A stretch of DNA of 14,047 nucleotides from Bacilli bacterium. GTDB lineage: Bacteria > Bacillota_I > Bacilli_A > RF39 > UBA660. Numbering within the stretch: the stretch's first letter is position 1; the number at the start of each line of letters is the position of its first letter. Shown here piece after piece: positions 9,443 through 14,046 of this stretch. Below the pieces are notes generated by a model. It saw only the letters and a program-made list of their open reading frames with translations, did no database searches and was not told where the DNA came from. The stretch covers positions 1 to 14,047 of the forward strand of contig CAAHEM010000111.1 in NCBI GenBank assembly GCA_900772435.1. Reading direction: 5' to 3'. Position numbers and translations under genes: made by a program.

Positions 9443-9515
9443 GTTATTAAATAATTTTCCATCTATCACGAAATATGTAAAGTTTTATTAAATATTTAAA
9501 TTTAACTATGATGAA

Positions 9516-9524
9516 TGCTATAAT
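9516..9524 (+). promoter_or_regulatory. extended -10 promoter of the ADP-ribosyltransferase-like gene
   Basis: TGCTATAAT, identical to the -10 of the gene at 11895. The -35 region (TTTAAA at 9495-9500, 18-base spacer) is weak. The start near 9531 gives a leader of about 26 bases. The ribosome site AAGGAG is at 9543-9548, eight bases before the ATG. Confidence 0.65.
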
Positions 9525-9556: not shown

Positions 9557-11035
9557 ATGGATGAGAAGATGGCTTTATCTACTAATATTAATAATGCTTT
9601 AAAGTCCAATTTCATAATTGAGATGTTGAAAAGAAATTGGGAACAAAGTAAAAGTATTGGTGTTCTAGGGAATCTGCTAGGAGAAGTATATACTCATATG
9701 ATTATTCATAAAGATGGTTTTGGTTTTGAATACTATATGAATCAAATGGAATCATTATATGCTAAACTTGGTACTAAGCAAATTGCTCCTGAACAGTTTG
9801 ATGTTGAAAAAGCAAAAGTTATTTCCTTTGTAATTGCTAATAAACTTGGTATTGATATATCAAAAGGTCTTTCTACTGAAGACGAAAAAACAATTAAGGA
9901 TTTTTATTTAAGAGAATATATTCAAGAAGGTTTTGTAACACATTCATTTCCTGATGCATATAGTGAATCAATTATGACAAATGGTCTAATTGCAAATCCT
10001 AGTAATAGAGCTAGCGCGACTTATGATAAGCAGTGGGTTCAAGATACCTTTATGAGTAAAGGTGTAGCAGCACCAATTGGAGGATATCCTTATTATGGTG
10101 GCACTGGTATATATTATGAACATGATTATTCTAAAATTTTTCAACATGCTATATATTCACCTGAATGGTTTAATTGGTTTACTTCTTCTGATCATCTGAT
10201 TGGTTTTCAGAGTATTGAGAATTCTCCATATATATTAAGAAATCAGGAAGCTTGCAGAAGAAATATTTTGGATTTGTGTACAAACGCAGGGCTATCAGAA
10301 GATGAAACAAAAAGAGTTATTGATTTTTATCAACAAAATTATGATAAATATTCTTCTCCAAAGCTTAACGTAGGATTAATATCTAAACAATTAGTTGGTA
10401 AAAACGATGTATCAAGAGCTGTTCCTAGTGATTTAGGGCTTCTTGATACCATAATTTATACTATGAAAGATAAAGCTTTTGAATATATAGAACATCAAGG
10501 AAATGTTTATTATGATACTATTAGTCCTTCTGATATTATATTTACAAATATACCAGAAGCTAATATGTATATTAAGGTCCAAGAATATAATCGTGAATCT
10601 AAAGATCATTTAACTAATCCTAGAAACAATTATGCAATAGTTAGAAGAGCAATTAAAAATGAATCTAGAATGACTCCAAAGATGGTAGAAAATGTTATGA
10701 AATTAAAAAGTATGTTAGAAGAAAAAATTAGTGGACTCGATAATAAGCCTTCACAATTAACTGATAGTGTTGAATTACAAACATTTAGAGTTAAAAAAGA
10801 ACAAAGGGATTCTGCTTCTAAAAATATAAATCAAATGTCTACTACTAGAAAAGAAATTTATGAATTACAATGTAAGATAACAGAAGAACATAACTTATCA
10901 AGAACCATTGAAGATAAAAATGCAAAGTCACTTGTCAGATCTTCTGGTGGGTTTGCCGGACAACTAGTGCTAACTATTATATCTATGTTTGTAGCTTGTG
11001 CTTTATTTTTGATCGTATATTATTTATATAGATAG
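9557..11035 (+). CDS. tail-anchored protein with a putative PARP/DarT-like ADP-ribosyltransferase domain
   Basis: 492 residues that I do not recognise as a named family. The middle reads like the H-Y-x class of ADP-ribosyltransferases. VTHSFP holds His129 at the place of the NAD-binding His in strand 1. SIMTNGLIANP (138-148) resembles PARP1 ILSQGLRIAP. GGTGIYYEHDYSK (181-193) resembles FGKGIYFADMVSK, placing Tyr186 at the second key residue. GNVYYDTISPSDIIF (315-329) looks like the third strand, with no Glu where PARP1 has Glu988. A helical, probably coiled-coil stretch (~370-457) leads to one membrane helix (~467-489) and a short YR end, so the enzyme domain should sit in the cytoplasm. The next gene is eight bases downstream. 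The fold is inferred from a few motifs by eye. Mono-ADP-ribosylation in defence, in a toxin role or in regulation is speculation. Confidence 0.6.
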   Translation: MDEKMALSTNINNALKSNFIIEMLKRNWEQSKSIGVLGNLLGEVYTHMIIHKDGFGFEYYMNQMESLYAKLGTKQIAPEQFDVEKAKVISFVIANKLGIDISKGLSTEDEKTIKDFYLREYIQEGFVTHSFPDAYSESIMTNGLIANPSNRASATYDKQWVQDTFMSKGVAAPIGGYPYYGGTGIYYEHDYSKIFQHAIYSPEWFNWFTSSDHLIGFQSIENSPYILRNQEACRRNILDLCTNAGLSEDETKRVIDFYQQNYDKYSSPKLNVGLISKQLVGKNDVSRAVPSDLGLLDTIIYTMKDKAFEYIEHQGNVYYDTISPSDIIFTNIPEANMYIKVQEYNRESKDHLTNPRNNYAIVRRAIKNESRMTPKMVENVMKLKSMLEEKISGLDNKPSQLTDSVELQTFRVKKEQRDSASKNINQMSTTRKEIYELQCKITEEHNLSRTIEDKNAKSLVRSSGGFAGQLVLTIISMFVACALFLIVYYLYR

Positions 11036-11043
11036 AGGTAGTT

Positions 11044-11658
11044 ATGGAAGATAAAAATTATAACGAAATTATATTAAACTGTTATAAAAAAGTTCAAGAA
11101 TTTGATCAAATAATAAATAATAAATTGCTTAACTTTGTAACAAATTGTATTGTGTTTGAAAAAACATCTAATCATAAATATGAGATACAAAAAAATATTA
11201 AATTAAACAAGATATATTTGCAAGGCTATGTACTTGACTCTCCTGTTTGTAAGTACTTGAAGGAAAAATATAAACATAACTATTCTATTAATGAATTACA
11301 TGAGTTTATTAATTTGTATGAAAAAGAAAGTGGCTCTGATTTCGTATCTTATCATGATGCGTTGAATTTGTTTGAAGATGCAAATAAATTAGAAGAATTA
11401 GTAGATAACAAGATTGAATATGAAATTAATGTTGTTAAAGGTTTTACTAATAAAATTCTAAGTATAGATAGTATAGAAAAAAGTAAATATCAGGTTCTTT
11501 TTGATGATATTGAGAATACAATTATTAATTACTATTTTAAAAGTAGTTTAATTAATGGTGATTGTTTAAAGTTAATTATTATGATTGTTAATGACATATT
11601 TAATTATTTTTCATCGGGGAATATTGAAATTCCAAAAGAATATATAAATCACGAGTAA
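11044..11658 (+). CDS. unknown helical protein, partner gene of the ADP-ribosyltransferase-like protein
   Basis: 204 residues with no motif I recognise. The sequence is rich in Lys, Asn, Ile and Glu and appears mostly alpha-helical. It has no signal peptide, and the only strongly hydrophobic stretch is KLIIMIVNDIF (176-186), too short and polar for a clear membrane helix. Four cysteines (13, 35, 69, 174) are not spaced as a metal site. The ATG is eight bases after the stop of the ADP-ribosyltransferase-like gene. Its AGAGG ribosome site overlaps that stop, so the two are co-transcribed and probably made together. The TAA lies within a strong terminator, closing the operon. From position it could be an immunity, antitoxin or adaptor protein. 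It does not look like a DarG macrodomain or an ADP-ribosyl hydrolase. Confidence 0.8.
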   Translation: MEDKNYNEIILNCYKKVQEFDQIINNKLLNFVTNCIVFEKTSNHKYEIQKNIKLNKIYLQGYVLDSPVCKYLKEKYKHNYSINELHEFINLYEKESGSDFVSYHDALNLFEDANKLEELVDNKIEYEINVVKGFTNKILSIDSIEKSKYQVLFDDIENTIINYYFKSSLINGDCLKLIIMIVNDIFNYFSSGNIEIPKEYINHE

Positions 11659-11676
11659 GTTTTACTCGTTTTTTTT
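11651..11676 (+). terminator. intrinsic terminator of the two-gene unknown operon
   Basis: An 8-bp stem, ACGAGTAA (11651-11658) with TTACTCGT (11662-11669), a tight three-base loop and eight T. The stop codon (11656-11658) is the last part of the 5' arm. Confidence 0.88.
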
Positions 11677-11682
11677 GACATT

Positions 11683-11709
11683 AAAAAAGCTAACAAATTT
11701 ATGTCAGCT
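11683..11709 (-). terminator. minus-strand intrinsic terminator in the 11659-11894 gap
   Basis: Read on the minus strand: AGCTGACA (11709-11702), six-base loop, TGTTAGCT (11695-11688), then a T-run (11688-11683). The stem is 8 bp with one G-U pair. No gene precedes it on the minus strand, so it would end a short transcript or antisense transcription from the right. Confidence 0.65.
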
Positions 11710-11795
11710 CTAATATTTATTTTGGAGCGATTGGTTAAGTTATTTACTACTTTTCCATCACAATTGAGAATTAATACATTTTGTGTCAATTTCTA
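11683..11795 (-). ncRNA. possible small minus-strand RNA of about 110 bases
   Basis: A minus-strand promoter candidate (TTTACA at 11830-11825, 18-base spacer, extended -10 TGTTATTCT at 11809-11801) predicts a start near 11794. The terminator above would end it near 11683. The space has no ribosome site or convincing reading frame on that strand. The promoter overlaps the first copy of the 40-bp tandem repeat. This is a prediction from two signals only. Confidence 0.3.
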
Positions 11796-11810
11796 TATAT
11801 AGAATAACAT

Positions 11811-11882
11811 AAAATTGCAAAATGTGTAAATATAATAATTAAAATTTTGAAAAATTGCAAAAAAGTATGCTATAATAATTAA
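11811..11882 (+). repeat. two-copy 40-bp tandem repeat covering the promoter of the gene at 11895
   Basis: Copy 1 begins at 11811 and copy 2 at 11851, exactly 40 bases apart. Each has AAAATTGCAAAA, eight non-matching bases, then TATAATAATTAA (11831 and 11871), so 24 positions match in two blocks. Only copy 2 has the upstream TGC that makes a full extended -10. The shared TTGCAA block could be a protein-binding site. Confidence 0.8.
11847..11876 (+). promoter_or_regulatory. promoter of the unknown gene at 11895
   Basis: TTGAAA (11847-11852), an 18-base spacer and TATAAT (11871-11876) with TGC before it (extended -10). The start is predicted near 11883, at the AGAGGG ribosome site (11882-11887), so the leader is about 12 bases. 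Confidence 0.72.
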
Positions 11883-11894
11883 GAGGGTATGATT

Positions 11895-12842
11895 ATGTAT
11901 AATGTAAAAGAATTAAGAGAAAAACTTGTGGAAAAAGTTGCTGGATTGGGAATTGAACCAAAATTTAAAGAAAATCCTGCATATGCTTCAGCAATATCAG
12001 AAATTGATAGTTTAATTGGACAAATGAATATGTTTGAATCAGCCGAATCAGTAACAGTTCAAGAAGAACAAGGTAGTATTTCGTTTAATTGGATTTCACC
12101 AGTTGGAGTAAAATATTCTATGAGCATTTCATGTTCTAGTCCTGAAACTTTTAGCTGTGTTAGAACTGAAGAGAAAAAGCCATTTATTGGAACAAATGGA
12201 CAAACTATTAGAGAAAAAAATGTTATAGAACAAGTTGCTACTATCGATAAATCAGGTTTTATAACCTTAATTACCAATGGTTCAATGGTAGATAATATTG
12301 ATTGCAGTGTTGGTAAATGTAATAATACCACTTGGGCTGAAAAAAAATACTATACAGCTAATGGTGTGATGAGGGACAGAGAATATAAAGGGTTTTCAAG
12401 AGGAGAATTAACTGAAGACTTTGATAGAACAAGAGTTGGTTCTATGCTTTATATTCCAAGACAAGCGTTTGGTTTTGGATTTTGGCATGATAAATATGAA
12501 ACAAGAACATTATTAACTAGAGATAAATTGGATACTGCTAGAATAGTTTCAGAAGATAAATCAAAAGGAATAAGATATAGTGCTATTACTCCTTTAAATC
12601 AAGAACATGGATTAAGAGATATGGTACTTCCTGGCGGATATGATCCATATCCACAAGATGTTGTTATTTCTCCATTATCACATGAAGAAATAGAAACTAT
12701 GATACAAAGAGAAAATAATCCAAAAGTCGCAGAAGGATTAAGAGTATATGCAGTCGGCAGAGAAAACTATTATTATAGTACTTCTGAGGACAAAAACTTT
12801 GTTAGCGAAGGTATTTCACAATCGCAAGGTATTTCTAAATAA
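11895..12842 (+). CDS. unknown soluble protein of 315 residues
   Basis: I recognise no family. Counting from the ATG at 11895, an N-terminal helical part (MYNVKELREK to about residue 48) precedes a long, probably beta-rich region with many aromatic, Gly and Thr residues. There is no signal peptide and no membrane helix. Four cysteines (80, 88, 137, 142) fall in two pairs, C-x7-C and C-x4-C, and could bind a metal, though the spacing is not standard. FGFGFWHDKYETRTLL (192-207) and LPGGYDPYPQDVVISPLS (245-262) are distinctive enough for a search. I prefer 11895 to the in-frame ATG at 11889, because AGAGGG ends one base before 11889 but seven bases before 11895. Composition looks slightly less AT-rich than in its neighbours. 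It is a single gene with a duplicated promoter region and its own hairpin terminator. Confidence 0.8.
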   Translation: MYNVKELREKLVEKVAGLGIEPKFKENPAYASAISEIDSLIGQMNMFESAESVTVQEEQGSISFNWISPVGVKYSMSISCSSPETFSCVRTEEKKPFIGTNGQTIREKNVIEQVATIDKSGFITLITNGSMVDNIDCSVGKCNNTTWAEKKYYTANGVMRDREYKGFSRGELTEDFDRTRVGSMLYIPRQAFGFGFWHDKYETRTLLTRDKLDTARIVSEDKSKGIRYSAITPLNQEHGLRDMVLPGGYDPYPQDVVISPLSHEEIETMIQRENNPKVAEGLRVYAVGRENYYYSTSEDKNFVSEGISQSQGISK

Positions 12843-12856
12843 TAACATAAGATTTT

Positions 12857-12895
12857 AAAAGACGATAGTTTACAATGATAAGCAATTGTCTTTTT
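12857..12895 (+). terminator. long hairpin terminator between convergent genes
   Basis: Stem AAAAGAC / GTCTTTT (12857-12863, 12888-12894), extended inward by nine positions (12864-12872 with 12879-12887) with one A-A mismatch and two G-U pairs, and a six-base loop. The G-U pairs form only in plus-strand RNA, so it serves the gene ending at 12842. The recombinase remnant's stop (12872-12870) lies within it. Confidence 0.75.
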
Positions 12896-13352
12896 CTTTG
12901 TCTTCTTTATCGGTATAAAAATCTTCAGCAGATTCTTCCATTTCTTGATTCATATGTTTAGTTGCTTTTTCAATTTCTTTTTTGTTAAACAGATTAAATC
13001 CTTTAAATCTTCTTTCTTCTTTTCTTTTATAATTTCTAGAGTTCTTTTTCTTTTGAACTTGGCATTCTTCCAATAATTCTTTTGATACTATTGGCTCAAC
13101 AACATTTTCATAATAAGTTGGAACTCTATTTCTTTTACCATGAACGAAGTCGCCTTTATATATTTCATTTTCAAGAATCTTTAAAATAGTTCCATCACAC
13201 CAGTTTGTTTTACCAAATACTTTTTCTTTGTTATAAAGATTACTAATTGTTTGATAAGAATTACCTTGATGATATAAATTAAATATTCTAATAACTTGAT
13301 CTTTAGTTGATACACGAATATAAATACCTGCAACTTTCTTTTCATTATTCAT
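12870..13352 (-). pseudogene. large serine recombinase remnant, internally deleted in frame
   Basis: 160 residues remain of a protein family usually about 500 or more long. Residues 1-19 are the start of a resolvase catalytic domain, with GIYIRVSTKDQ and the nucleophile Ser15. They run straight into VIRIFNLYHQGNSYQ, which belongs to the Recombinase DNA-binding domain normally some 150 residues further on. That domain continues through GKTNWCDGTILKIL, YKGDFVHGKR and YYENVVEPIVS to about residue 110. The expected zinc-ribbon cysteines and coiled coil are missing; a charged tail (about 111-160) replaces them. The frame is open and AAGGAG still stands eight bases before the ATG, so a short DNA-binding product could be made, but strand exchange should be impossible. 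It marks a former mobile element. The family is that of Tn4451/ICE-type recombinases; the original element cannot be named. Confidence 0.82.
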
Positions 13353-13395
13353 TAACCAATCACTCCTTTTACTAAAAAAGAGAAGACAATAGTAT

Positions 13396-13473
13396 CTAGT
13401 AAAGTCTAAATGCTACTGACTCCTCATTAAATTCAATATTATAAATTTTCGATATCTTGTGTTTATATATCAT
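13396..13473 (-). CDS. possible 25-residue ORF upstream of the recombinase remnant
   Basis: ATG at 13473 to TAG at 13398-13396, preceded by a strong GGAGG ribosome site and a good promoter (13545-13516). The product ends EESVAFRLY. An in-frame ATG at 13509 would give 37 residues but has no ribosome site. It is not recognised. It may be a leader peptide for the recombinase, 43 bases downstream, or the stub of a second lost reading frame of the same element. Confidence 0.4.
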   Translation of the reverse strand: MIYKHKISKIYNIEFNEESVAFRLY

Positions 13474-13515
13474 AGATGTACCTCCATTTCTAGAGTATAC
13501 CTCTTTCATTGGTTA

Positions 13516-13545
13516 TTTATAATATCGCCTTTTAAGATTTGTCAA
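13516..13545 (-). promoter_or_regulatory. promoter of the recombinase remnant region
   Basis: On the minus strand a perfect -35 TTGACA (13545-13540), 18-base spacer and TATAAA (13521-13516). It is the best -35 in the window. The near-palindrome AGAGGTATACTCT, just downstream, could be an operator, though this is weak. Confidence 0.6.
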
Positions 13546-13619
13546 TTTCCTATAAAGGGAATAAGTAGTATTAGTTGAAGTTGATATTTAAATAACTATT
13601 TTAATTTCTTTATATAATC

Positions 13620-13871
13620 TTATAAATCTTTAATTTCAATAGAGTTTGATAGATTACCGATATAGAGTGTTTTAGAATAATTAAACGCTAGGAAAGTAAT
13701 TCCTTTAATAATAACTCTATGTGGCTCAATATAAGATAAATTAGAGTGTTCTATATTTCTTATATTACCATTTATTATTTTCGGTTTAGTATTACAAAAA
13801 TCACATATAAACTCAATTTTATTTTTTAATTCAGTTTCAAACTCTATTGGTTTACTTACAATATTAATCAT
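13620..13871 (-). CDS. unknown 83-residue protein with one CxxC
   Basis: From the ATG at 13871 the product has 83 residues. Cys23-x2-Cys26 (FICDFCNTKP) could be half of a zinc site, but no second CxxC or His pair follows. The C-terminal half (RVIIKGITFLAFNYSKTLYIG) looks beta-rich. It has no signal peptide and no membrane helix. I start at 13871, because AAAGGA (13884-13879) is seven bases upstream; a longer frame from GTG at 13892 has no ribosome site. It lies 22 bases after the terminator of the upstream tRNA-Cys unit, so its own promoter must overlap that terminator or depend on read-through. A 14-bp inverted repeat flanks it. It is probably an accessory gene; no function can be suggested. 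Confidence 0.6.
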   Translation of the reverse strand: MINIVSKPIEFETELKNKIEFICDFCNTKPKIINGNIRNIEHSNLSYIEPHRVIIKGITFLAFNYSKTLYIGNLSNSIEIKDL

Positions 13872-13892
13872 AATAAAATCCTTTCTTAACAC

Positions 13893-13972: not shown

Positions 13973-14046
13973 TGGAGGAGCCAGTCGGATTTGAACCGAC
14001 GATGGAGGTGTTGCAGACCTGTGCCTTACCACTTGGCTATGGCTCC
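13973..14046 (-). tRNA. tRNA-Cys (anticodon GCA)
   Basis: Complete, 74 bases, with CCA encoded (13975-13973) and discriminator U (13976), as expected for cysteine. The acceptor stem GGAGCCA (14046-14040) pairs perfectly with TGGCTCC (13983-13977). The anticodon loop is CTGCAAC, with GCA at 14014-14012. The anticodon stem has four pairs plus a C-C mismatch at 27-43. The T arm GTCGG-TTCAAAT-CCGAC is perfect. The promoter, or any tRNA genes before it, lies beyond the window edge. Confidence 0.95.

Follow-up and report, generated by a model that had tools for sequence, protein, structure and literature searches.

The window analyzed here, meaning the whole 14,047-nucleotide stretch of contig CAAHEM010000111.1 (assembly GCA_900772435.1) from a member of the Bacilli, carries two neighboring genes on its forward strand. 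The first encodes a tail-anchored protein whose central domain is predicted to have the fold of an ADP-ribosyltransferase (ART), and the second, which follows after 8 bp according to the calling of open reading frames (ORFs), encodes a partner of 204 amino acids (aa), referred to as F3. An intrinsic terminator (−7.7 kcal/mol, z −2.36) overlaps the F3 stop codon; the scanned region holds six terminator-like sites, against 0.6 in shuffled sequences. The promoter-like site ahead of the pair is counted as weak because such sites occur at chance frequency in this region (28, against 27.0 in shuffles). Since the terminator lies at the F3 stop and the next gene (11889-12842, 317 aa) has a promoter-like site of its own, the ART-fold gene and F3 form a single two-gene unit, closed by the terminator. 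This agrees with a preliminary description of the DNA, which had placed a 204-residue gene of no recognized family in the same operon. The features are listed in Table 1.

Table 1. Positions of the features of the two-gene unit in the window and of one distant ART-like gene in locus L121.
Feature	Position	Strand	Basis or remark
Promoter-like site, TTTAAA - 18 - TATAAT	9495..9524	+	10/12 matches; weak
Tail-anchored protein with predicted ART fold, 492 aa	9557..11035	+	ORF calling, AlphaFold, domain model, alignment
N-terminal helical region, residues 1-111	9557..9889	+	AlphaFold helices 3-15, 18-31, 34-50, 57-72, 78-96
Predicted ART-fold domain, residues 112-347	9890..10597	+	Domain model and structure comparison
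H129, candidate NAD-binding His, motif 1	9941..9943	+	64/64 rows
Y186, candidate second-motif residue	10112..10114	+	63/64 rows
E312-H313, candidate third-motif residues ahead of the GNVYYDTISPSDI strand	10490..10495	+	60/64 and 64/64 rows; by position only
Stalk, residues 349-460, largely helical; the exchangeable tail starts here	10601..10936	+	AlphaFold, tail profile
Membrane helix at the C-terminus, residues 466-491, with a conserved Gly-aromatic (GGF) ahead of it	10952..11029	+	AlphaFold, hydrophobicity
F3 partner, 204 aa, isoelectric point (pI) 5.1, without membrane segment	11044..11658	+	ORF calling, profile searches
Intrinsic terminator over the F3 stop codon	11651..11677	+	8-pair stem followed by eight T
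ART-like gene of L121	L121:7811-8977		Order priA - small gene - ART-like - fmt - unknown - rlmN - PP2C - PASTA kinase - rsgA

Because helical matches swamped the comparison of the full-length model with the PDB, the central domain was modeled separately. The resulting model had a predicted local distance difference test score (pLDDT) of 92.7 and a predicted template modeling score (pTM) of 0.85. When it was compared with solved chains, the first 17 of 28 rows were all ARTs, the nearest being Tpt1/KptA (tRNA 2'-phosphotransferase), followed by DarT and PARP14, although Foldseek alone gave no significant match for the model. In this model the central domain has the split β-sheet fold of ARTs, as the preliminary description had proposed from short motifs. 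Comparisons with known families added little. Searches with the ART protein against PDB sequences, Pfam, NCBIfam, PADLOC and PHROGs returned nothing useful, and Pfam gave scattered single weak matches over 31 rows of an alignment of ART matches. The Tpt1/KptA family PF01885 matched neither the window protein (E up to 1) nor those 31 rows (E up to 0.5) and was found in none of 17 F3-bearing genomes. The ART protein had no match in phage and plasmid records, and viral contigs, searched by pattern and tblastn, yielded no relative of it or of F3. A profile of the N-terminal helical region matched ART-bearing proteins only (the window protein, L001, L002/L137, L003 and, weakly, the distant ART L125_10). 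Judged by its modeled fold, the domain would use nicotinamide adenine dinucleotide (NAD), either for transfer of a single ADP-ribose or for NAD hydrolysis. The reading as a poly-ADP-ribose polymerase was dropped, as nothing supported it.

At E≤0.01 the ART protein has 80 homologues, none with a precomputed Pfam domain; the two that are named are called 'hypothetical protein', and one of these is from a Bacilli bacterium. The window protein was aligned with 63 of the 80, very long fused sequences and some near-duplicates being omitted. In all 64 rows of this alignment H129, F131, G143, L144, G184, E203, W204, F205, F208, R228, N236, K282, H313 and P333 are conserved. The motifs quoted in the preliminary description (H129 in VTHSFP, SIMTNGLIANP, GGTGIYYEHDYSK and GNVYYDTISPSDII) are present, and the matches exceed chance because they are near-invariant in these rows. 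H129 and Y186, on whose conservation the earlier assignment depended, are kept in 64 and 63 rows, respectively. The third catalytic Glu, which had been called not evident, now has a candidate in E312 (60 of 64 rows), beside the invariant H313. Conserved residues thus appear to occupy all three ART motif positions, the third being placed by its position in the chain rather than by superposition, and H129, Y186 and E312/H313 would line the NAD pocket. The catalytic tetrad of Tpt1/KptA is Arg-His-Arg-Arg. In a weak hhalign alignment H129 lies opposite the His of YHGT in E. coli KptA, and the motif-1 His is the only member of the tetrad that is aligned.

The helical stalk and single C-terminal membrane helix of the earlier account are also borne out. 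Residues 470-488 are the only hydrophobic segment of the ART protein; the AlphaFold model of the stalk has low-confidence joints at residues 399-411 and 452-464, and the net charge over the region 95-33 residues before the protein end is only +1. A profile of the full-length protein was searched against two overlapping sets, one of 291 genomes from the family to which G003 belongs and one of 288 from the order that includes G001, and matched in 71 and 69 of them. The matches were of two kinds, covering either the ART part or the last ~110 positions alone, the latter in open frames of ~90-1130 aa. A profile of this tail, tail1, built from 15 proteins, matched 45 of the 291 genomes, 15 of them at E<1e-8; these and the F3 counts below are raw, with kinship and genome completeness uncorrected. 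All 26 tail1 rows (24 distinct places) have a single hydrophobic segment, which is C-terminal. Ahead of it lie quite different domains: an ART in the window, G001 and G002 and, in part, in G099 and G004; a GH10 domain in L132 (4e-25; 3e-16 against a solved xylanase), L134 (1e-27) and L048 (2e-27; the place of L149); and, by eye, an HExxH motif at the places of L132, L133, L135 and L136 (sequences L029, L033, L034 and L037). Sub-threshold matches were seen to an alpha/beta-hydrolase in L047 (0.028; the place of L148) and to LupA in L130 (0.0032), and the other tail proteins carry domains without family assignment. An N-terminal helical hairpin of ~75 residues is common to 12 of the 26 rows (10 of the 24 places); the window protein is without it. 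In the xylanase-like proteins L132, L134 and L149, too, the C-terminal membrane helix is the only hydrophobic segment. Overall, the stalk and membrane helix are a module that is exchanged among unrelated domains in related small-genome Bacilli.

Both tail classes, tail1 and a second one described below, have an invariant Gly directly ahead of the membrane helix, which is Gly-Phe/Tyr in the 15 tail1 rows of the profile alignment and is possibly a processing or recognition site. Cleavage by a prepilin peptidase at this Gly-aromatic was considered and dropped. Prepilin-peptidase sites usually have Glu at +5, which the tail lacks, and with the peptidase in 32 of 34 genomes its presence has no discriminating power.

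F3 is tightly linked to this tail, whatever the enzyme. A single-sequence search with the 204-aa protein gave ten close clusters, and in the fetched loci the gene 3' of a tail protein is usually an F3 homologue. An F3 profile, built from 19 proteins that were mostly drawn from genes adjoining tails and thus not fully independent of them, matched 19 of the 291 genomes, 16 of them at E<1e-15. F3 occurs in 14 of the 15 strong-tail genomes and in 2 of the 276 others (Fisher 7e-21, kinship being ignored and the profile not being tail-independent). The neighborhoods, which cover a subset of the tail matches from the order sample, hold 24 F3 rows at 21 distinct places; a gene matching the tail profile lies within two genes upstream in 18 of these and immediately upstream in 15. 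Reading all frames added G195, where the tail lies directly upstream of F3 in a frame without a called start, and the pairs of G004 and G339, the latter with a gap of ~400 bp. Overall, a tail is found upstream in 21 of 23 distinct F3 places, immediately so in 17, and at the remaining two (G106 and G047) the upstream protein has a tail-like end by eye. Weak F3 matches in G073 (2e-5) and G155 (2e-4), which fall within open frames of 722 and 725 aa, respectively, were rejected as spurious. For the six weaker tail matches, L142-L147, the fetched sequence contains nothing that matches F3.

A profile search at E≤0.001 gave 302 F3 proteins, and the best 120 of the 302 are 201-221 aa long and without Pfam domains; the F3 homologues of the fetched loci are 22-75% identical to that of the window. 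Over 19 F3 rows Pfam gave scattered single weak matches and no type VII family at E≤0.1, and a PDB sequence search gave one weak match (E 0.16). The 24 rows are acidic (pI 4.3-5.6) and without a membrane segment, whereas the stalks paired with them have pI 8.5-11.7, except for L172 at 5.8; the window stalk is otherwise the least basic. The stalks of L142-L144 are basic, yet these have no F3. One F3 family lies 3' of ART, GH10, HExxH-bearing and unassigned proteins alike, and this placement irrespective of the enzyme makes an adaptor or chaperone that binds the tail a likelier role for F3 than immunity specific to the ART. Two arrangements differ from the simple pair. In G001 and G002 the genes for the ART tail protein and for F3 are separated by a conserved gene of 137-138 aa, which by eye looks like a HAD-type phosphatase (L001:~11480-11900 and L002:~11450-11880). 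In L169 two tandem proteins with the common N-terminal hairpin described above, tail-like ends and middle parts that are nucleotidyltransferase-like by eye only are followed by one F3.

The fold, the tail, the exchange of the tail between unrelated domains and the tight linkage of F3 to the tail are results of the computations. The explanation that we favor, with a probability of about 0.5, is a modular family made up of a variable enzyme, a common C-terminal tail and a dedicated acidic partner, F3, from the next gene. The enzyme (here of ART fold) would be joined to a tail made up of a helical stalk that is usually basic, a flexible linker, a Gly-aromatic and a single membrane helix. F3 would bind the stalk or tail as a chaperone or adaptor, may keep the hydrophobic tail soluble, and might pass the enzyme either to an export machine or to the membrane of the cell that made it. 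The mix of enzymes looks more like that of effectors than of metabolism. A wider proposal is more tentative, and we would hold it at less than even odds: that an undescribed cassette of interchangeable tail and companion in uncultured gut Bacilli carries unrelated enzymes (ART, xylanase-like and HExxH) to or through the membrane with F3 as the tail chaperone, and that its ART arm shares ancestry with a tail-anchored housekeeping ART-like protein encoded next to fmt. The pair is undescribed in the family libraries used and in the literature searched, most subscription journals lying outside its coverage.

The fmt-adjacent proteins are distant ART homologues of 378-484 aa with a different C-terminal hydrophobic tail. 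A profile of this second tail class matched 44 of the 291 genomes, with a single match in 43. In all 20 fetched loci (L110-L129) a gene of the fmt cluster lies directly 3' of the ART-like gene, and in 15 a gene of the priA cluster lies within two genes upstream; Pfam identities (PriA, Fmt, RlmN, PP2C, PASTA kinase, RsgA) were confirmed in L121 only. In an alignment of the window protein with 30 of 34 ART matches, partial or duplicate ones being omitted, the 27 distant rows keep H129 in 26, Y186 in 15, and E312 and H313 in none. Going by this alignment, the candidate active-site residues are partly lost in the fmt-linked group. The ART profile matched 33 of the 193 family genomes but 2 of 73 in a class-wide sample, namely the center genome and one already known, so that, within the samples searched, the ART group seems to be restricted to this lineage. 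Genome sizes in the sampled lineage range from 0.4 to 1.8 Mb.

Two other explanations are of about equal standing. The first, which we regard as a real if minority possibility, is that the enzymes are tethered to the bacterium's own membrane and face its cytoplasm, regulated by F3 and serving in defense or stress response. By the positive-inside rule, basic residues flanking a membrane helix tend to stay inside, and the mostly basic stalk ahead of the only hydrophobic segment in each tail1 row would favor a topology with the enzyme inside; the related ART-like group, moreover, sits in a housekeeping operon. A role in defense is countered by the lack of a PADLOC match for the ART protein, F3 having a weak partial match to Cas10 (E 7e-4, 16.6 bits), by the GH10 domains, which are odd for a defense effector, and by the absence of any macrodomain from the five ORFs of the window that were scanned.

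The second, plausible and in our view only slightly less probable, is that the proteins are exported effectors of reverse architecture, with the enzyme N-terminal, the stalk and tail as the signal and F3 as a Lap-like partner. By analogy with TslA and its partners TlaA1/TlaA2, they might leave through a type VIIb or other exporter for other cells, where the tail would insert into membranes. The gene order is that of the tslA locus, as its description gives it (PMC10730906), and the GH10 domains hint at targets beyond the cytoplasm. The type VIIb ATPase EssC is over the cut-off in 11 of 17 F3 genomes, compared with 7 of 17 others; in the 193-genome sample it is present in 8 of the 10 genomes that have F3 and in 79 of the 183 that have none (p 0.045, kinship and completeness ignored). 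This association is suggestive of export at most, as EssC is widespread in the clade in any case, with 87 of the 193 small-genome Bacilli carrying it and several copies in some of them, and 6 of the 17 F3 genomes have no full match. A YxxxD/E motif occurs in the last 14 residues of 16 of 31 non-redundant F3 proteins, more than in random windows (mean 0.15, maximum 0.42) but not above shuffled F3 C-terminal residues (mean 0.35, maximum 0.58). The lack of a type VII family among the F3 rows in Pfam also counts against export, as do the failure to find any further targeting segment and the stalk, which is mostly basic and so favors an enzyme that stays inside. To our knowledge, TslA has no membrane tail.

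It is rather improbable that the ART-fold domain has lost catalysis and acts as a binding module only. The distant rows, in which the position of E312 is taken by R in 15 and K in 7, would fit such a loss, but the candidate sites are near-invariant in the group of the window protein itself. Least probable is a toxin-immunity or toxin-antitoxin pair in which F3 specifically neutralizes the ART: the two-gene unit has its own terminator and ART-fold toxins with a downstream neutralizer exist, such as Tne5 (PMC13285283), but one would expect an ART-specific inhibitor to vary with the enzyme, and a single F3 family adjoins wholly different enzymes throughout. The preliminary description had proposed a membrane-tethered ART with a new immunity or adaptor protein; the predicted ART fold, the tail and the conserved pairing stand, ART-specific immunity is judged unlikely, and the adaptor is favored.

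Beyond the pair, the product of 11889-12842 had no match in NCBIfam or PADLOC and none over threshold in Pfam. A short gene on the reverse strand (12870-13352) matches the recombinase family PF07508 (7e-14) and resembles a shortened serine recombinase, and near it lies a tRNA-Cys gene (13973-14046, reverse strand). The two are possibly the remnant of an integrated element.

If the tail and F3 are a general targeting kit, they would be a marker for listing and testing further effectors of uncultured small-genome gut Bacilli. The fmt-linked protein raises a different question, namely whether, in a bacterial operon, an ART fold next to a gene of translation has a housekeeping role.

Compared with Tpt1/KptA, the window protein has no match to the family and has helical insertions in the domain, and E. 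coli KptA, at 184 aa, is without such a tail. The pair differs from DarT/DarTG in having F3 as the partner and a membrane tail; Pfam found no DarG-type macrodomain in the five ORFs of 9557-13892, genes upstream of 9557 lying outside the scan. PARP14 and other H-Y-x ARTs are weaker structural matches and differ in architecture. In layout the pair recalls TslA, a reverse-architecture lipase toxin of the type VIIb secretion system, which likewise has an N-terminal enzyme, a C-terminal helical targeting region and helical partners, TlaA1/TlaA2, encoded at the 3' end, these partners showing no clear F/YxxxD/E C-terminal motif of their own (PMC10730906). Unlike TslA, the system described here has a membrane tail, one partner of ~200 aa and several enzyme types, and its export would be by analogy only. 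With polymorphic toxin systems, as portrayed in PMC3482391, it shares a common trafficking part and exchangeable enzymes. It departs from them in its reversed order, its C-terminal membrane helix and a common partner in place of a toxin-specific immunity gene, and, if our explanation is true, it would be the polymorphic-effector layout reversed end to end.
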